Assembly (NCBI GenBank): GCA_022482495.1
Contig: JAKVPA010000001.1
Span: 310,001-374,000 of the forward strand
DNA: 64,000 nucleotides
Reading direction: 5' to 3'
DNA from: Sphaerochaeta sp.
GTDB lineage: Bacteria; Spirochaetota; Spirochaetia; Sphaerochaetales; Sphaerochaetaceae
This document shows, piece by piece, positions 1 through 25,204 of the stretch; position 1 is the first letter of the stretch; the number at the start of each line of letters is the position of its first letter. The position numbers and the translations under genes were made by a program. The notes below the pieces were generated by a model that had not been told where the DNA came from, made no database searches, and worked only from the letters and a program-made list of their open reading frames with translations.

Positions 1-430
1 CACGCGGCGTCGTCCTGCCACGGGTTCCTTTGGACGCATTCCGCTTGTCCCTGCGGTCCAGCCAACCGGCGATGTATTCCGGACTCCAGTACACCCGGTC
101 TTTGGGAATGAGTCCCTTCTCCGGCCGGTAGCGCTCCACTCCCAGATAATCGGCAAGCGGTTTCACCCGTGCATCCATTTCGTGATACTGCTGGATGCCG
201 AACGCCCAGTCCCGCCCCTGGGCCATGTCAATGACGGCCAACAGGTGCGACTTCCGCGCCGGTTTGCACTTGTAGTTGAAAAACGATCCATCCTGTTCCT
301 GCACATTGCCCACCACCTCCACCGGAATGGTCAGTTCCATGTGGAATCCGTGTCCCTCCAGAAACGCGACGGCGTCCTGAAGGGAAACAAACAAGGTGTC
401 ATTGCAGGTGGTCAAAGCATGCGTGCCCAT
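1..430 (-). CDS. Hypothetical protein, C-terminus cut by window edge
   Basis: About 143 residues are visible before the frame leaves the left edge without a stop. The ATG at 430 is preceded at about 8 nt by an AGGGGAAGG purine stretch, which supports this start. The protein begins MGTHALTTC and has a basic tail rich in Arg, Lys and Thr. I see no signal peptide, membrane segment or family motif, and I do not recognise it. It follows proB by 52 bp on the same strand with no terminator between, so it may be the third gene of the proA-proB transcript. Function unknown. Confidence 0.55.
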   Translation of the reverse strand, partial: MGTHALTTCNDTLFVSLQDAVAFLEGHGFHMELTIPVEVVGNVQEQDGSFFNYKCKPARKSHLLAVIDMAQGRDWAFGIQQYHEMDARVKPLADYLGVERYRPEKGLIPKDRVYWSPEYIAGWLDRRDKRNASKGTRGRTTPR

Positions 431-12476: not shown

Positions 12477-15400
12477 AACTCAGTGAATTATCAGTACGGC
12501 GTCCCGTACTGATCACGATGGTGTACGTCATCATCATGGTCATCTGCGCCATGTTCATCTCCAACCTGCAGATATCACTCTATCCGTCGGTATCCATGCC
12601 GATCATCTCCGTGATGGTCGACTGCAACGAGGCGGGTCCGGAAGAGATCGAGCAACAGGTGGCCAAGGTGTTGGAAAACAACCTCGGTTCGTTGGAAAAC
12701 CTCAATACCATATCTTCCACATCCTCGGAAGGCCAGGCGTTCGTCACGCTGGAATTCAACTACGGCACCGACCTGGATGACGCAGAGGACGATGTACAGT
12801 CGGAGATCAACACGCTGGTCGGCAGGGATTCGTTCCCCGATTGGGCGGATACGCCTACCATCTTCCGTTTTGACCGGATGAACAACTCGTCGTTCATGCG
12901 GCTGGTGATGAGCGGCTCCTCCGACCTTGACCAGTTGAAGGAAATCGCCGAAGACGACGTCTCACCGATGTTGCTTCGTGTCAGTGGGGTCTCCCAGGTG
13001 GAAGTCATGGGAACCGGAACGAAGAAGTACGAAGTGAAAGTCGATCCCATCAAGCTTGCCGCCTACGACTTGACGCTGACCAACGTCAAGACGGCGCTTG
13101 CCAACGCCAACATCAACGACACCCAAGGGACGATCACCCAGGATTCGATGAACTACACCATCAGCATGGATGAGCGGTTCATGAATCTGGATGACATCCG
13201 CCAGACGGTGGTCTCCACCATCGACGGGGCGGACATCACGGTGGATGACATCGCCACGGTGGAATCAGCCCACAGCACCGGCCAGGAACGGTACCTGGAT
13301 GGGAACCAGGTGATCAACCTGTCCGTCTCCAACGACAGTGACGCCAACAGCACCACCGTCGCCAAGGCGGTCAGGGCAGCGCTCCCTGAGATCAACGCTT
13401 CCCTGCCTGACGGCGTGAAGGTGACGATCCAGCGGGATGAGACCACGTTGATCTCCTCCACGTTGAACGAGGTGTACGCCAACGCCATTCGAAGGTATTC
13501 TGCTTGCCGCCTTGTTCATCTTCCTGTTCCTTCGCAACATCAAGGCGACGCTGATCATCTCCCTTTCCATGCCGATCTCCATTCTGATCACCCTGATGGT
13601 CATGTCCATGGCGGACATCACCGTCAACAGCATGTCGATGAGCGGTTTGATCCTCGGCATCGGCATGATCGTCGACGCGTCCATCATCATTCTGGAGAAC
13701 ACGTACAACTACCGGGAACGGGGCAACAGCCCTGCCGCGTCGGCAATTCTCGGCTCGGAGAACATGACCACCGCCATCATGGCGTCCACGTTGACGACGA
13801 TCTGTGTCTTCGTGCCGCTGATCATCTTCAAGAACAAACTGGAAATGATCGGCATCATGTTCCAGGATCTGATCTGGACGGTCATCATATCGCTGCTCGC
13901 CTCAATGTTCGTCGCCTTCACGCTGGTTCCGGCGTTAAGCGGCTCCATCCTGAAGCTGAACACCCGTGTGCAGAAACCATTGAAATTCCGCCTGCTCCGC
14001 TGGATGGATAATGTGGGCATCAAGATTGAGCAGAAGCTGGAAAACGGCTATGCCAACGTGCTGGACTACTTCCTCTCCCACCGGTTCCTGCTGATCATGC
14101 TGCTGGTGCTCCTGGTGTTGTTCAGCTTCACCTACGTCACCGGCATCGGCATGAACCTCACCCCGGCGATGAACACCGATGACTCGGTCAACATGTCGCT
14201 GACGCTACCTGCCGGCACCAACAACTCCGTCACCAAAACGGAACTGTTCGCCATGCAGACCAAGTTGACGGAAACGCTTCCGGAAGGCTCGTACACCCAG
14301 ATCATGGTCAACGTTGGAACGAGCAACACGGGAAGTATCAGCATCTCGATGCCGGACATCGAGGAGCAGAAGTATACGGCCAATGATCTGAAGAAGCTGA
14401 TCAGACCGCTGATGAGCGGTAACCCTGACGCTTCCTGGACGTTCAGCGGCGGTCGTGGACCGGGCAATTCCAGCCCGATCGACGTGACGGTAACCGGCAA
14501 CGACCTGACCAAGATTGAGAGCGCCACCAAGGAAATCGCCGCGATCATCAACTCCTACGTGCCGGAAGCCACCGATGTGACCACCGACCTGGAGAACGGA
14601 TCGCCGCGCATCACCATGACGATCGACAAGAAGGTGGCGAACGACCTGGGCGTTTCGATGAGCGCCATCAACACCACCGTCTCCTACGCGCTTACCGGTA
14701 CGACGGCGACGACGATCTCCACGTTCAACAGCGACACCACCTACAGTCTGGTCGTCATGATGGATGATACCTCCATCACATCGATCAACGAACTGGGAGG
14801 CTTGCTTGTCGCCGGAACCAACGGTAACGTGCGGTTGGATACCTTGGCAAGCTTCTCCATCAGCAGCGGACCGTCCACCATCAGCCGTGAGAACAAGAAA
14901 CGGGTGAACAACGTGACGGCGAAACTGGCTGACGGATATACTGCCAGTGAAGTCCAGGCCAAGGTGGAGAGCGCGCTTGCAGAGCACTTTACCGCCCCTG
15001 ACGGCGTGGTGGTCGGAAACAATGGTGATATCCGGCAACTTTCCAACTACGGGCCGACGCTGGTGATGATCGTCCTTCTGGCCCTCCTTCTGGTCTTCGC
15101 CGTCATGGCAGGGTCAGTTCGAGAGCTTGGTCGATCCGTTCATCATCTTCGCCACTATTCCGCTTCTGTCCATCGGCGTCATCTTCATCCACGTGCTCAT
15201 GAACCAGAGCTTCAGCCTGTTCTCCGTGGTGGGCATCGTCGCCTTGATCGGTGTGGTCGTCAACAACGGCATCGTGTTGGTCGATTCGATCAACCAGCGG
15301 GTGCGCAAGCACGAACCGGTCAGACAAGCCTGTCTGGAATCGGCACGGACTCGTCTCCGCCCGATTCTGATGACCACGCTGACCACCGTCGTCGGCATGA

Positions 15401-15651
15401 TCCCGCTGGCGTTCTTCCCGGGCAGCGGCTCGGAGATGATGCAGCCGATCGCGCTGACGTTCGTCGGAGGATTGCTCACCGGCGCGTTCCTGACGCTGTT
15501 CCTCTCCCCGGTGCTGTATTCGATCATCAACACCCGGCGTGAGAAGAAGTACGACGATCCCAGGACACTGGCCAACCAGCTCGCCCTGTTCGACCAGCAT
15601 CGCAACGATCCCCAGCCGGTCAAACCCGCTGACGAATCGCAGGATACGTGA
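12473..15651 (+). pseudogene. RND multidrug-type transporter (AcrB/MexF family), two frameshifts
   Basis: Inner-membrane proton-driven pump of the operon; the corrected protein would be 1058 residues, normal for the family. It starts MKLSELSVRRPVLITMV, with the porter domains and the GLILGIGMIVDASIIILEN transmembrane-4 motif. An extra C near 13490 breaks NEVYANAIEGILLAALF; an extra G at 15111-15113 breaks AVMAGQFESLVDPF. After the second break the frame continues through VVGIVALIGVVVNNGIVLVD to the end at 15651. Removing both bases gives an exact multiple of three. As all motifs persist, sequence error is more likely than decay. Confidence 0.88.
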
Positions 15652-15659
15652 TCTCTTCC

Positions 15660-15694
15660 AAGCCCCCGCAGTTCGCGGGGGCTTGTTTTGTTTT
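15660..15694 (+). terminator. Terminator of the efflux operon
   Basis: Perfect 10-bp stem AAGCCCCCGC / GCGGGGGCTT with an AGTTC loop, then GTTTTGTTTT. It begins 9 bp after the RND stop. The T-run overlaps the proposed -35 of the next gene. Confidence 0.93.
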
Positions 15695-15711
15695 CCGTTT
15701 CGCGCAAGAAT
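15683..15711 (+). promoter_or_regulatory. Promoter of the EamA gene, predicted leaderless
   Basis: TTGTTT, 17 bp, AAGAAT, then 6 nt to the ATG at 15718. The -10 is weak, but the geometry is identical to the other leaderless promoters here. Confidence 0.42.
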
Positions 15712-15717
15712 CGCCGT

Positions 15718-16604
15718 ATGTCTTCCCTTGTCATCGGCCATCTGTTCGCCCTGACCACCGCGTTCTGTTGGGCGGAGAACGCCCTGATCTGGGGATACTT
15801 GGGCAAACGGGTCGGTTCCACCGAGACGGCGCACATCCGGATGTGGATCGCCACTCCAGTGCTGTTCCTCCTCGCCAGGATGATCGACGGACCGGTCCAT
15901 GCGGACATCCGCACCTGGCTGATCCTCCTTGCCAGCGGATGCTTGGGTTATTTCGTCACCGATGTGGCCGTCTTCCGGGCTTACGTACTGCTGGGAACAC
16001 GGAAAACCGTCGCCATCCAGACACTCAGTCCGGTCTGCAGCGCCCTGCTCTCATTGGCGCTGTTTGGAGAGCGGCTCTCGTCCCAACAAATCATGGGACT
16101 CGCCATAGCCATCACCGGCGTCGCTCTGGTGATCATCCAACAGAAGAAAGAAACCGGGCCAGCGCAGAAATCTGGGATCCTGTTCGCCGTATTCGGTGCC
16201 GTCGTCCAAGCGCTTTCCCTGGTGCTCACCAAATACGCGCTCACCTCCTCCGGCGCTCTGACCACCAACATGATCCGTTGTCTTGGTGGGTTGATCAGCC
16301 TGTTTCTGTTTTCTCTCTTCCGGAAGAACCTGGTACACGACTTCTCCTCGTACCATTCAAGCGGTCTGTCTCTGTTCCTGCTTTTGGCGCTTGGCTCCCT
16401 GTTGGGCCCGATCATCGGCATGAGCAGTGAGATGCAGGCGTTCCGTTTCGCCCCCCTGGGACCGTCACGGCAATCTCCCAGTCAAGCCCGGTGATCCTCC
16501 TGATCCAGGAAGGTGTGCTGGGCAGAAAACGAGTGTCGTTCAAAGAAGCAATGTTCACTCTCTGGGCGGTAGGAGGAATCGCCTTGCTGTTCATCGCCGA
16601 TTAG
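15718..16604 (+). pseudogene. EamA/DMT-family transporter, frameshifted near the end
   Basis: Ten-helix drug/metabolite-type inner-membrane exporter, 295 residues once corrected. The two EamA repeats are visible (about 5-140 and 150-285). The frame is broken at about 16457-16460, where GGG should probably be GGGG: after FRFAPLG the protein resumes as TVTAISQSSPVILLIQEG and ends LFIAD. No Shine-Dalgarno precedes ATG 15718; it lies 6 nt after a -10-like hexamer. The transported compound cannot be inferred. A missing homopolymer base suggests sequence error rather than a true null. Confidence 0.8.
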
Positions 16605-20336: not shown

Positions 20337-20354
20337 GGTTTCTCCTTTGAACAA

Positions 20355-20379
20355 GAAATCCCCCCGGAAACCCGGGGGG
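20355..20379 (-). terminator. Terminator of the giant protein gene
   Basis: Minus strand: CCCCCCGG / CCGGGGGG stem with a GTTT loop, followed by ATTTCTTG, 17 bp after the stop at 20396. Confidence 0.8.
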
Positions 20380-20395
20380 AACAACACTGCGAAGA

Positions 20396-23300
20396 TTAGA
20401 ACTGGTACGTAAGTCCGACAGAGACCGTACCACGTGTCTGCGCGAGACTGCTGCCAGCGAAGCCAAGCTTCACGCCCGCTTCGGCAAACACCCCAAGGTT
20501 GTCGGTGAAGTCATACTTCACACCGGCATATCCACCGAGGCTGAACAGGACGGAATTGGTTCCTTCCGGAACGAACTCAGCTCCGACGAGCAATCCGCCA
20601 TACAGATACTTCCCAGCGTAACCGACCGTTGCTGCCAACGGGATGCTATTGGCGTTCCCGTTAAGTCCGAAGCCGTATCCGGTATCAAGCCCGAAATACA
20701 GACCACTGGAGAGTTTGTATCCCAGTCTCAGTCCCACACCGATCTGCGGGAATCCTTCGCTGCCATACACACCGTACCCGCCCAAGCCAATGACGAAATT
20801 CGATGTCGTGGCAGGAGTTTCCGCCTTCGGGGCTTCCGCGACCACCACAGGAGCGGCAACAGGAGCTTCCGCCTTCGGGGCTTCCGCGACCGGTTTGGGT
20901 TCTTCAGCCTTCGGAGCTGCGGCAACCGCAACCGGTTTGGTCACGTTGACGCCTTCCGGTCCGGCAGTGACAAGCGTGCCATCGCTGAAGGAGATCTTCC
21001 GCACACCATTCTCTTCGCTGTAGCCCGTAGCCGCGGCGGTGATCACCTGTCCATCGGCAACGAAGCCCTGCGGTCCGTATTCCAGACCATCAGCCAGCGT
21101 GAGGCGGGCAACCGATCCATCCTTCGCGATGACGGCTTTCATGCCATCGGCGTAGGCGATCGTCTTGCTTCCATCAGCAGCCAGCGAGAAACCGGTGATC
21201 GCAGAGGAACTCACATCCAATCCCTGATATCTGGTATGGACGCCGTTCTCATCCGCCGCAATCTCAGCGCCGGAAGCGAACATCACATCCACGATGGAGT
21301 CACCCTTGGTGTAGACCATCATGCCATCATCGAAGGAGAGCAACCGCTCATCACCCTGCGTCTGGAAACCGTTGACGGCAGCCTTGGTGACCACGATTCC
21401 ACGATAGCTGGTTTCCCAACCATCCGGGGATGTCGCGATGGTGATGCCGTTGGGAGAAGCGATGTTCACCCAACCGGATTTCTGTACCGTCAGGACAACG
21501 CCATCCGCATACGTGACCTTCTGGGAACCATCAGACGCTTTGGCATATCCGACGATCGCGGATTCGCTGATCGCCGTATTGCCATAGAACGTTCCAACCC
21601 ATGAGCCATCGGTGGCAAACACCAGACCGTTGGGAAGCGCATAGGCGAGATTCCCTTCCGGCATGACGATCAACACGGACTGATCACCGTACAGCAACGC
21701 CAGACTGCCATCCGCTTCACCCGCGAACTGCTGTACCGGCGTGTCGTTGACCACCACACCCGCGATGGAAGTCTGCATGTCATCCAGCGCGTTGATCTGC
21801 ACCTTCAACGAATTGGGCAGGGAGACCGTCGTCACACCCGTAGCGGCGACATCAACCTTCATACCGTTTTCGTAGGCAAGATGTTTGGCGCCCGATGCAT
21901 CGGCAGCGTATCCGGTGATCGCGACCGTCGAGACCACCTGTCCCGCGAACGAAGTTGCCATACCATCTTTGGTGAAGGCAACCGCCATTCCGTTGGGAAG
22001 CTCCACGTTGCCAAATCCAGCCTGGTCAACCGAAGCGACCATGCCATCAGCATAGGTGACGCTCTTCGTTCCGTTGCTCGCCGAGAACTTGGTGATCGGC
22101 TGGTCGGAAACAACCACCGATCCGTAGGTCGTCAGTGTTCCGGTCTTGGTGAACGCAACCTTCACCCCGTTGGGAAGCGCGATCGTCGCGTATCCCGCTT
22201 TGTCGACGGAAACAACAGTGCCATCCTTGTAGGTCAGCACACGCGTTCCATCCGCACCACTCTTGAATCCGAGAATCGGCTGGTCCGTCACTACAAAGCC
22301 GGCGAACGAGGTCTTCATGCTGCCGTTTTTGGCGACTGCCACCGTGATGCCGTTTGCCGCGGTATAGGTGGTCGTACCATCAGAAGCCGTCGTAACCTTG
22401 ACATCATCCCCATAAGAGACCGCAGGTGCCTGGGCCTTGACAGGTGCTGGTGCCGGAGCCGGTTTCGGTGCCGGAGCGGTTACCGTCGCTGTGCCGGACG
22501 CATCCACAGAGAGCACCGTTCCATCGGCGAAGCCAACCTTCCGCACTCCGTTGGAACTGGCCGCGTACGCGCTGATCGGAGCGGTCGTTACCGTCTTGCC
22601 ACCTTCGGTAGTGACCGTACCAGACTTGGTGAACGCGACGCTCACGCCGTTTTTCAGATTTACCGTAGCGAAGCCCTTGGCATCCACCACAACCGACGTT
22701 CCATCGGCATAGGAGACGGTCCGGGAACCATCAGATCCAAGCTGGTAGCCGGCGATGGCCGCAGTGGTCAGCGGTTGGCCAAGGAACGAGGTGACCTCGC
22801 CCTGTTTGGTGAACGCGACCGTCATGCCATTGCCCAGATCCACCGTACCAAAGCCATTGGCGTCAATGGCAACAGAGGTGCCATCCGCATACCCAATGGT
22901 ACGGGAACCATCTTTCTTCACCGCATACAGCGTGATGCCCGCGTTGGTGATCGGAAGTCCTTCATACGAAGTGGTCATTCCGCTTGCCGTGAAGGCGACG
23001 CTGACGCCATTGCCCAAGCTCACCGTAGCGAACCCTTTGGGATCGACGACCACGGACGAACCATCAGCATAGGCGACTTTGCGGGAACCATCAGAAAGCG
23101 TCTCGTAGGACACGATTGCTGCTTTGCTCACCGGCTGGCCGAGATAGGACGTCACCATGCCATCTTGGGTGAACGCAACCGTCATACCGTTACCGACATC
23201 CACCGTGGCGAACCCTTTGGCGTCAACCGCAACGGAAGAACCATCGGCATATCCGATGCGCTTGGCACCGTCTTTACTGGAAGAGAAAGAAATGATATCA

Positions 23301-25069
23301 GCCGTGGAGACCACCTGGCCGCCATACAGCGTGTTCGTTCCCTTGGCGGTAAACGCCACACTCAGGCCATTGCCCAAGGCAATCGTGGCATATCCCGCTT
23401 TGTCCACGGAAACAACCGTACCATCCTGGTAGGTCAGCACTCGGGAGCCATCAGCGGCTTTGGAGAACGAAACAATCGTCTCATCCGTCAACGGGACTCC
23501 GGCGAACGAGGTCTTCATGCTGCCGTCTTTCGCCACCACAACCGTCAGCCCATTCTGGGCGGTATACGTCGTGGACCCATCCGATGCCGTGGCAACCGCC
23601 ACATCCTCACCGTAGGGTTTCGGGGCTTCCACCGGAGCAGGAGCCGGGGTCTCTGCTTTTGCGGGTGCCGGAGCCGGAGCCTCAGCCTTTGCTGGCGCTG
23701 GCGCTGGTGCCGGTGTCTCTACCTTTGCCGGGGCAGGAGCTGGTTTCGCTTCTTCCGTCTTCGCAGGAGAGGTCACCACAACGGGTTGTTCCGCTACGGT
23801 CGGCACTTGCTTCTTCGAGCAGGAAGCCAAAATGATGATAATCAACACCACAACCGCGACAATGACCCAAATCAGCCATTTGGGGAATTTGCCCGATTTC
23901 TTACCGTCTCCCGTTCCTCCGCCTCCTGTAGCAGACGCTGCAGGAGCCTCCTGTTTCGCAACCGCCGGTTTCTGTGTTACTTCCGCCGGTTTCTTCTGCT
24001 CATCGTCCATTGGTACCTTCTTTCCTTCTGCCATTGTTTCCTTCTTTGCGGTCGGCGCCTTCAGCGTCTTGGCCGCACCCTTTTTATCAGACACCCTGGC
24101 CTGCCCTGCAGGTTCAGGAGTCTTATCCATGTGTACAGAGGAACCAGTCACCTTCGGTTCCGGTGCTGATTCAGGACGAGCCATACCGTCAATGGCGGTA
24201 CGTTCCGTCGTGTAATACCCAGCTTTGGCGTTGACCAACGCTTTCAGTTCCGAGATGTTGTCATCAAGGTTCGGGTCAATATCGTTGAGACGGGGTTGCT
24301 TGCGGAATGCCGTGGGTTTGTCCAGCTTCCACGTAGCGACCGCCTCAAGCTCATCACAGACCCGTTCCAACGGAACAGCGGTCTGTGTGGTGATGGTCAG
24401 TTGCTTCTGGATGGCGTCACGCTCAGCTCGGAGCGCTTTTCGCTTCTCATTGTACTGGGCTTTCAGGGCATCATCGGCCCCAGATGGGGTTTTCGCCGCT
24501 TTGATCTCCCCAAGTTTCGCATCCAACGCCTGTTGCTGTGACTGGAGTTCAAGATAGCTCTTATCATACGCCTTGGCGCTTTGTCGGGCCTGATACAACA
24601 ACTGCTGGACAGTGATGTGTTGGATCCGGTGATAGATTTCCCGGACGGATTCCGTCCCCATCGAAGCCTCATCCAGATCGGGCACGACTTCGGGTTCCGG
24701 AGCGATTTCCGGCCGTTCCATTTCCTCGGCAGCCTTTGCCTCGTCCTGTACAACCGGTTTCTCCACCGTATCCTCCACTTCAGGCCGTGCAAATGGCTGC
24801 TTCGGTTCCTGGGAAGGAGCTGGCTCGGTTGGCTTGATGCTGACGACGGACTTGCTCCGGGGAGAAGATGCAGCAGCCGCCTGTTTGTTCTTTTTTTCCG
24901 CAATCTCCGCCTTCAGCCGTGCCTCAAGCAAAGCCTTTGCTTTGGCGTCACTCATCACCTTCACAGGTGATTCTTTGGGCGCAAGGTTTGTCCGCCCTTG
25001 TACACCAGCATTCTTCTTCACTGGAGCCGTTCTCCGGACTGAACGACATTTGTACCGTTTGCTCGACAT
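20396..25069 (-). CDS. Giant trans-envelope repeat protein with OM barrel
   Basis: 1557 residues; not a family I recognise. Order: a basic, low-complexity N-terminus without signal peptide (1-140); a charged coiled coil (about 145-235); a Pro/Lys/Ala region; one membrane segment, WLIWVIVAVVVLIIIILASC (398-417). Pro/Ala linkers come next (about 430-485), followed by about fifteen ~60-residue repeats (486-1379) in two blocks split by another Pro/Ala linker, a final linker, and a C-terminal domain (1424-1557) of alternating amphipathic strands ending TYQF, as expected of a BAM-assembled 8-strand barrel. Start: AGGAGG lies about 7 nt before ATG 25069. The frame stays open farther upstream, but only as antisense to trkA. 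Inferred role: a tether or conduit between the two membranes. LASC at 414-417 looks like an internal lipobox. Confidence 0.82.
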   Translation of the reverse strand: MSSKRYKCRSVRRTAPVKKNAGVQGRTNLAPKESPVKVMSDAKAKALLEARLKAEIAEKKNKQAAAASSPRSKSVVSIKPTEPAPSQEPKQPFARPEVEDTVEKPVVQDEAKAAEEMERPEIAPEPEVVPDLDEASMGTESVREIYHRIQHITVQQLLYQARQSAKAYDKSYLELQSQQQALDAKLGEIKAAKTPSGADDALKAQYNEKRKALRAERDAIQKQLTITTQTAVPLERVCDELEAVATWKLDKPTAFRKQPRLNDIDPNLDDNISELKALVNAKAGYYTTERTAIDGMARPESAPEPKVTGSSVHMDKTPEPAGQARVSDKKGAAKTLKAPTAKKETMAEGKKVPMDDEQKKPAEVTQKPAVAKQEAPAASATGGGGTGDGKKSGKFPKWLIWVIVAVVVLIIIILASCSKKQVPTVAEQPVVVTSPAKTEEAKPAPAPAKVETPAPAPAPAKAEAPAPAPAKAETPAPAPVEAPKPYGEDVAVATASDGSTTYTAQNGLTVVVAKDGSMKTSFAGVPLTDETIVSFSKAADGSRVLTYQDGTVVSVDKAGYATIALGNGLSVAFTAKGTNTLYGGQVVSTADIISFSSSKDGAKRIGYADGSSVAVDAKGFATVDVGNGMTVAFTQDGMVTSYLGQPVSKAAIVSYETLSDGSRKVAYADGSSVVVDPKGFATVSLGNGVSVAFTASGMTTSYEGLPITNAGITLYAVKKDGSRTIGYADGTSVAIDANGFGTVDLGNGMTVAFTKQGEVTSFLGQPLTTAAIAGYQLGSDGSRTVSYADGTSVVVDAKGFATVNLKNGVSVAFTKSGTVTTEGGKTVTTAPISAYAASSNGVRKVGFADGTVLSVDASGTATVTAPAPKPAPAPAPVKAQAPAVSYGDDVKVTTASDGTTTYTAANGITVAVAKNGSMKTSFAGFVVTDQPILGFKSGADGTRVLTYKDGTVVSVDKAGYATIALPNGVKVAFTKTGTLTTYGSVVVSDQPITKFSASNGTKSVTYADGMVASVDQAGFGNVELPNGMAVAFTKDGMATSFAGQVVSTVAITGYAADASGAKHLAYENGMKVDVAATGVTTVSLPNSLKVQINALDDMQTSIAGVVVNDTPVQQFAGEADGSLALLYGDQSVLIVMPEGNLAYALPNGLVFATDGSWVGTFYGNTAISESAIVGYAKASDGSQKVTYADGVVLTVQKSGWVNIASPNGITIATSPDGWETSYRGIVVTKAAVNGFQTQGDERLLSFDDGMMVYTKGDSIVDVMFASGAEIAADENGVHTRYQGLDVSSSAITGFSLAADGSKTIAYADGMKAVIAKDGSVARLTLADGLEYGPQGFVADGQVITAAATGYSEENGVRKISFSDGTLVTAGPEGVNVTKPVAVAAAPKAEEPKPVAEAPKAEAPVAAPVVVAEAPKAETPATTSNFVIGLGGYGVYGSEGFPQIGVGLRLGYKLSSGLYFGLDTGYGFGLNGNANSIPLAATVGYAGKYLYGGLLVGAEFVPEGTNSVLFSLGGYAGVKYDFTDNLGVFAEAGVKLGFAGSSLAQTRGTVSVGLTYQF
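20933..23614 (-). repeat. Tandem ~180-bp coding repeats in the giant protein gene
   Basis: About fifteen diverged copies of a ~60-codon unit. The consensus reads roughly Y-A-D-G-x-S-V-x-V-D-A-x-G-F-A-T-V, then L-x-N-G-x-x-V-A-F-T and a S-F-x-G-x-x-V element. The two blocks (residues about 486-863 and 886-1379) open with nearly the same sequence (YGEDVAVATASDG and YGDDVKVTTASDG), so a multi-repeat segment was itself duplicated. Copies drift towards the C-terminus. Confidence 0.88.
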
Positions 25070-25204
25070 GCATCTCCTCCTGACTCTGGATACAGAACCC
25101 TTAGTTTGATGATGGAACTGCTTTCCCTCGTTGTCAAGGAAAAGAGCCCAAAAGCCACAAAATGGATGACGTATTGGCAGATTTTTCATCACTTCCTTTG
25201 TTTC

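Follow-up and report, generated by a model that had tools for sequence, protein, structure and literature searches.

A predicted inner-to-outer-membrane tether with a G-box-like beta-ribbon stalk in Sphaerochaeta

A single gene in the window (the whole 64,000-nucleotide stretch of Sphaerochaeta DNA analysed here, from an assembly of 2.25 Mb) encodes a protein that, with a probability of roughly 55%, acts as a trans-envelope tether between the inner and the outer membrane. Its predicted topology, which runs from the cytoplasm through an inner-membrane helix and a periplasmic repeat stalk to an outer-membrane barrel, is well supported by predictions and by comparison with relatives. An earlier note on this DNA had proposed the same single-chain topology; the predicted barrel and the same-gene origin of the N-terminus uphold it, but a lipobox-like cysteine at residue 417, overlooked at that time, is a real threat to it. 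Searches of the whole protein against Pfam, NCBIfam and the PDB yielded no function name beyond Tcp10_C and low-complexity matches, and a plasmid search gave no match.

Results

Gene and domain layout

The reading frame is intact and lies on the minus strand, a detail that the earlier note did not give; its parts are listed in Table 1. Its ATG is preceded by a ribosome-binding motif and a promoter-like site, and thus the N-terminal 400 residues are part of this gene and not the separate protein whose existence would have undone the earlier proposal; the fusion is also kept in two congeners. No N-terminal signal is present, as had been claimed, with hydropathy in the first 60 residues peaking at 0.18. 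The Pro/Ala linkers were located as four stretches rich in Pro, Ala, Glu and Lys (residues 357-381, 418-485, 860-885 and 1376-1423).

Table 1. Positions in the window of the gene, its flanking signals and the segments of its product
Feature	Position	Strand	Basis or remark
Whole reading frame, 1557 aa and stop	20396..25069	minus	orthologues in G001 and G002
Sigma-70-like promoter match, TTGACA-17-CATCAT	25109..25137	minus	consensus scan only
Shine-Dalgarno AGGAGG, perfect, before ATG 25069	25076..25081	minus	sequence
Residues 1-143, basic low-complexity N-terminal extension, predicted cytoplasmic	24641..25069	minus	no hydrophobic segment
Residues 144-282, helical-hairpin domain, predicted cytoplasmic, restricted to family	24224..24640	minus	AF2 pLDDT mostly >90; profile matches
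Residues 283-394, charged disordered linker	23888..24223	minus	composition; relaxed selection in congeners
Residues 398-417, predicted inner-membrane helix, N-in from K/R flank	23819..23878	minus	hydropathy, flanks
ILASC lipobox-like motif with Cys417	23819..23833	minus	neither congener has a lipobox here
Residues 418-485, Pro/Ala linker	23615..23818	minus	composition
Residues 486-859, G-box-like beta repeats of 60 aa, block 1	22493..23614	minus	period 60; PF07202
Residues 860-885, Pro/Ala linker inside stalk	22415..22492	minus	composition
Residues 886-1375, G-box-like repeats, block 2	20945..22414	minus	AF2 all-beta; CPAP TCP10 match
Residues 1376-1423, Pro/Ala linker	20801..20944	minus	composition
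Residues 1424-1557, predicted 8-strand outer-membrane barrel, last residue Phe	20399..20800	minus	AF2, structure alignment, hydropathy
Hairpin CCCCCCGG-GTTT-CCGGGGGG with T-rich tail, probable terminator, 3' of reading frame	20350..20379	minus	sequence reading

Repeat stalk

The tandem repeats seen in the earlier reading number about 14 and are exactly 60 residues each, with autocorrelation peaks at 60 and 120 residues over about 860 residues. The whole protein matches Pfam PF07202 (Tcp10_C) with 87.2 bits against a cut-off of 36 (E 5.1e-25). An AF2 model of residues 1060-1557 shows an all-beta stalk, with pLDDT of 65-78 over most of the modelled part, and the TCP10 domain of CPAP is the first-ranked Foldseek match to the stalk (E 5.6e-7). 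VIA-align gave a Z score of 7.6 (rmsd 5.0) against CPAP and of about 5-6 against the single-layer sheets of OspA. These models identify the repeats as a predicted single-layer beta-ribbon of the CPAP G-box type.

The TCP domain of CPAP is a freestanding single-layer beta-meander of about 20 strands with DG turns (PMC3776556). The likeness to this CPAP/SAS-4 G-box lies in the Tcp10_C match above the cut-off, in the best structural match and in the repeated hairpins of a freestanding single-layer sheet with DG turns; the difference is that CPAP belongs to eukaryotic centrioles and its domain has about 20 strands (PMC3776556), whereas the protein described here has about 14 repeats of 60 residues and is assigned to a bacterial envelope. 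The edge of the CPAP sheet binds a proline-rich motif (PMC3776556), and the window protein carries Pro/Ala-rich linkers in the same chain as its sheet. The protein would represent a bacterial use of this rare CPAP-type single-layer beta-sheet.

If straight, the ribbon would measure about 40 nm, a figure obtained by arithmetic and not by measurement (6-7 strands per 60 residues at 0.48 nm per strand), and when fully extended it would probably exceed the usual periplasm, a point against the tether. The repeat region of the congeners G001 and G002 is about 610 residues, and thus stalk length is not conserved. The earlier idea of a spacer that sets periplasm width accords poorly with a middle region that varies among members in both fold and length.

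C-terminal barrel

The C-terminal domain (residues 1424-1557, 134 residues) closes with GLTYQF and has the amphipathic-strand character and terminal Phe ascribed to it: 33.6% of its windows show alternating hydropathy, compared with 7.6% (sd 4.8) in shuffles, more than 5 sd away. AF2, given an alignment of 4 rows, placed eight strands in these last 134 residues, though with a low pLDDT of about 45. Residues 1420-1557 align by VIA-align to NspA with a Z score of 15.6 (137 residues, 2.6 A) and to OmpA with 13.8 (136 residues, 2.6 A), both far above the scores of unrelated rows; together with the eight strands this favors the barrel that had been proposed here. The C-terminal domains of seven proteins all suggest outer-membrane-barrel families, none above the Pfam cut-off. 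PF13505 is among the Pfam matches for six of the seven, the remaining one matching Autotransporter and PagL, and NCBIfam outer-membrane-barrel families, including the spirochaetal TP0733 family, were matched by five. An Omp85/BamA homologue is encoded in the genome of the window protein.

A second type of barrel protein is found in the same genome (L162:813-1943, C8) and at L160 and L161, and consists of a signal peptide, a small beta domain, a long Pro/Ala/Glu linker and a C-terminal barrel; the bridge proteins of the congeners have related barrels.

Cytoplasmic helical-hairpin domain

AF2 modelled the N-domain (residues 144-282) from a 29-sequence alignment as a long helical hairpin with short helices, with pLDDT >90 for most residues. 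No Pfam match above the cut-off was found for it, sequence comparison with the PDB returned only designed or generic coiled coils, and comparison with PDB structures returned none with E <0.001, although a missing match is no proof of a new fold. Profile matches are present in 29 of 139 Sphaerochaetaceae genomes, representing 11 of 22 genera; outside the family, a class-wide sample gave marginal matches only, which are coiled coils. A search of contigs detected 11 loci, all in Spirochaetales or Sphaerochaetaceae bins and mostly from rumen, faecal and other MAGs.

In several genera the domain occurs by itself, in soluble proteins of about 200-440 residues that have no transmembrane segment, suggesting an independent role in the cytoplasm. 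Many domain-bearing genera have only such copies, and thus the job of the domain need not be linked to the envelope. Among the loci read, the stand-alone copies have no neighbour genes in common. The N-termini of L007, L005, L020 and L075, which include stand-alone proteins and one linked to a transmembrane segment, have a common basic motif, ..YNGV.MTRAEREA.., that may perhaps be a binding peptide.

Relatives and selection

The earlier note had proposed looking for the same architecture in other spirochaete genomes, and it was found there. Two congeners (G001 and G002) have the same order of N-domain, transmembrane helix, Pro/Ala linker, G-box-like repeats, linker and barrel ending in Phe. 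In three other genera (G076, G106, G013 and G162), all complete proteins have the N-domain, one transmembrane helix and a barrel-like C-terminus; one G106 protein is incomplete, being cut by a contig end. The middles of these proteins differ, consisting of alpha/beta repeats, charged repeats or linkers alone, with a linker only in one G013 protein. Two genera (G020 and G009) show the inverse order, in which a lipobox signal, a periplasmic part and a transmembrane helix precede the domain at the C-terminus. For both orders, positively charged flanks predict a cytoplasmic location of the domain in most members, and the signal is weak in a few. The topology stays constant though order and spacers change, and no other observation argues as strongly for the importance of the two ends.

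Codon changes between G001 and G002 number 13 nonsynonymous and 42 synonymous in the N-domain and 14 nonsynonymous and 32 synonymous in the barrel, while in the linkers nonsynonymous changes exceed synonymous ones. By this measure purifying selection is strongest on the N-domain and the barrel and weak on the linkers, with the N-domain among the most conserved parts. Such a pattern would fit a tether, as both ends are held in one reading frame while the connections between them vary.

Inverse architectures with a Pro/Ala or Glu/Pro linker ahead of the transmembrane helix were read at L077:1550-3046, L078:2302-3702 and L079:2009-2962, and are possible lipid-to-cytoplasm bridges. A periplasmic alpha/beta repeat of the form ..SYP....DI..AL....YP.. 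was noted, by eye only, at L072, L073, L077, L029 and L163, and seems to be common to envelope proteins of several Sphaerochaetaceae genera.

Discussion

Membrane helix and alternative readings

The one strong helix at residues 398-417 stands as described: its best 19-residue window (399-417) has a hydropathy of 3.36, reached by none of 2000 shuffles, and the second-best window in the protein is 1.16. Its end coincides with Cys417 in the sequence ILASC/SKKQ (ILASC being residues 413-417), which fits the lipobox motif, and this raises an unlikely but serious alternative: Lgt would lipidate the cysteine and LspA would cut at the internal LASC, freeing a lipid-anchored beta-ribbon and barrel protein of the outer membrane and leaving the N-domain and helix in the inner membrane, with no single chain spanning the envelope. 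The five related G-box and barrel proteins of the g18 genus (G034, G122, G019 and two in G123) add to its appeal, as all five are plain lipoproteins lacking the N-domain. A bacterial lipoprotein, however, has its cysteine close behind a short N-terminal signal, and residue 417 is distant from any N-terminus. The segment also exceeds 20 lipoprotein signals from the family in length and in hydropathy (3.65, compared with a mean of 2.57 and a maximum of 2.95), and its 3.65 falls within the range of the family's transmembrane helices. At the same site the congeners have VRAC and ARGC, which with Arg at -2 are not lipoboxes, and other members have VKC, RRC or no Cys, so that cleavage is not a conserved feature. 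The g18 loci (L156, L157, L158, L159 and L011) encode lipoproteins that combine G-box-like repeats with a barrel at the C-terminus and lack a cytoplasmic domain, and the window protein probably descends from such proteins or is a sister to them; since they are plain lipoproteins without the N-domain, their structure suggests that this domain was joined in front of an older lipoprotein signal.

Other functions are conceivable for a chain that does span the envelope. It could be a sensor, with the barrel or stalk monitoring either the surface or how far apart the membranes are, and with the hairpin in the cytoplasm signalling to a soluble partner; the soluble occurrence of the N-domain and its high conservation would suit this, but the protein has no enzymatic or DNA-binding domain and the stand-alone copies have no conserved neighbour genes, making the idea rather improbable. 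A lipid or solute conduit in the manner of MlaD or TamB, included in the earlier note as transport, has in its favor the combination of inner-membrane helix and outer-membrane barrel in one chain, as in the long MlaD of Veillonella (PMC10665443), and the open beta-sheets of TamB-like proteins. We regard it as very improbable: neither a transporter domain nor a partner can be recognised, the MCE domain is absent from every member tested (no match at E up to 1 in the window protein or at E up to 0.01 in ten relatives), the middle modules vary by genus down to the G013 linker, and an 8-strand barrel is narrow. Hardly any credence can be given to an autotransporter-like surface protein with exported repeats. 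A long beta passenger followed by a C-terminal barrel recalls one, as does a weak PF03797 match for the barrel of one relative, but known autotransport needs a larger barrel than one of 134 residues and eight strands, and the cytoplasmic domain and transmembrane helix would keep the N-terminus inside. Type Va autotransporters also have a barrel of roughly 12 strands and a cleavable signal, whereas here the predicted strands number eight and the N-terminus carries no signal.

For the tether, the following assembly is envisaged. Sec would insert the uncleaved helix at residues 398-417, with the N-domain remaining on the cytoplasmic side; everything after the helix would enter the periplasm, where BAM would fold the final 134 residues into the outer membrane, and a single covalent chain would then connect the two membranes. 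The helical hairpin would hold the inner end, by itself or via a cytoplasmic partner, the Pro/Ala linkers and single-layer ribbon would form a spacer that can flex, with the narrow barrel as an anchor and not a channel. Computation shows a single intact gene, the transmembrane helix, the repeat fold, a predicted barrel, a conserved order of parts and the lack of OmpA_C. We infer that both ends are inserted at the same time, that the chain bears load and that the N-domain has a binding target. More tentatively, and at somewhat less than even odds, these proteins may form a modular class of covalent, peptidoglycan-independent tethers between the inner and outer membranes, specific to Sphaerochaetaceae and built on a new cytoplasmic hairpin domain, with a barrel or lipid end and interchangeable spacers (single-layer beta-ribbon, alpha/beta repeats or bare linkers).

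Comparison with known systems

The earlier statement that no described family has this order was too strong. The long MlaD of Veillonella parvula combines in one chain a helix in the inner membrane, a stalk in the periplasm and an outer-membrane barrel at the C-terminus, and fractionation supports its presence in both membranes (PMC10665443). The window protein is predicted to share the helix and barrel in one chain, but long MlaD has an MCE domain, a helical stalk, a 10-strand barrel, a hexameric state and lipid-transport partners (PMC10665443), whereas the window protein lacks an MCE domain, has a beta-ribbon as its stalk and eight strands in its barrel, and carries a large domain in the cytoplasm. 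SlpA of Deinococcus (PMC9388160) and OmpM of Veillonella (PMC10628300) consist of an N-terminal anchor, a long stalk and a C-terminal outer-membrane barrel, and tether the outer membrane in bacteria without standard anchors. A barrel following a stalk is likewise predicted here; in contrast to these secreted, peptidoglycan-binding proteins with N-terminal SLH domains, the window protein has neither a signal peptide nor an SLH domain and is predicted to hold on to the inner membrane. OmpA also uses an 8-strand barrel as outer-membrane anchor and part of a tether, but its barrel comes first and is followed by a peptidoglycan-binding C-domain that is absent from the window protein and nearly the whole family. 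TamB and YhdP resemble the window protein in having an inner-membrane helix and beta structure that crosses the periplasm; to our knowledge they have no barrel of their own and no cytoplasmic domain of this kind. The family represents a bridge of its own kind, one that includes a domain in the cytoplasm. We know of no outer-membrane tether so far (Lpp, Pal, OmpA, OmpM or SlpA) that does not hold peptidoglycan.

Envelope context

The Sphaerochaetaceae are a mostly gut-dwelling spirochaete lineage. OmpA_C (PF00691) was detected in one of 139 genomes of the family, in none of the 75 high-quality genomes and not in the genome of the window protein; SLH domains were detected in 9 of the 139, again not in this genome, and the window protein itself has no SLH match. 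The family seems to be without the usual anchors between outer membrane and peptidoglycan, and their apparent absence makes a direct membrane-to-membrane tether plausible, one that would substitute for the missing OmpA/Pal-type anchors. As OmpA_C is lacking family-wide and the architecture was found in few genera, it cannot be a general replacement for OmpA_C. Family-wide searches with the barrel alone or with Tcp10_C had low sensitivity, and a missing match in them is not read as absence. PBP transpeptidases were detected in 59 of the 139 genomes, with one in the genome of the window protein, and went undetected in 9 of 22 genera. The N-domain is commoner where PBPs are missing (Fisher p 0.011 by genome), a trend that is insecure by genus (p 0.08). 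Energising of the TonB/Tol type was considered as a shared mechanism and rejected, since among the genomes searched ExbB/TolQ-like genes are confined to the genus of the window protein and do not occur with other members. A literature search that mostly excluded subscription journals found no paper on envelope tethers in Sphaerochaetaceae.

If the tether is real, it would be another route to holding the envelope together in diderm cells that have hardly any cross-linked wall, or none, and it would allow the cytoplasm to directly read or pull the outer membrane. It would also pose a puzzle of biogenesis, namely how Sec and BAM could each insert one end of the same chain.

Elsewhere in the window, an RND-type efflux gene is apparently split (13512-15651): the frame at 13512-15542 is nonsense from about 15100 and the transporter continues in 15127-15651, which appears to reflect a frameshift or an assembly error. 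An EamA/DMT-like transporter reading frame at 15688-16494 has lost its C-terminal part, apparently by another frameshift.
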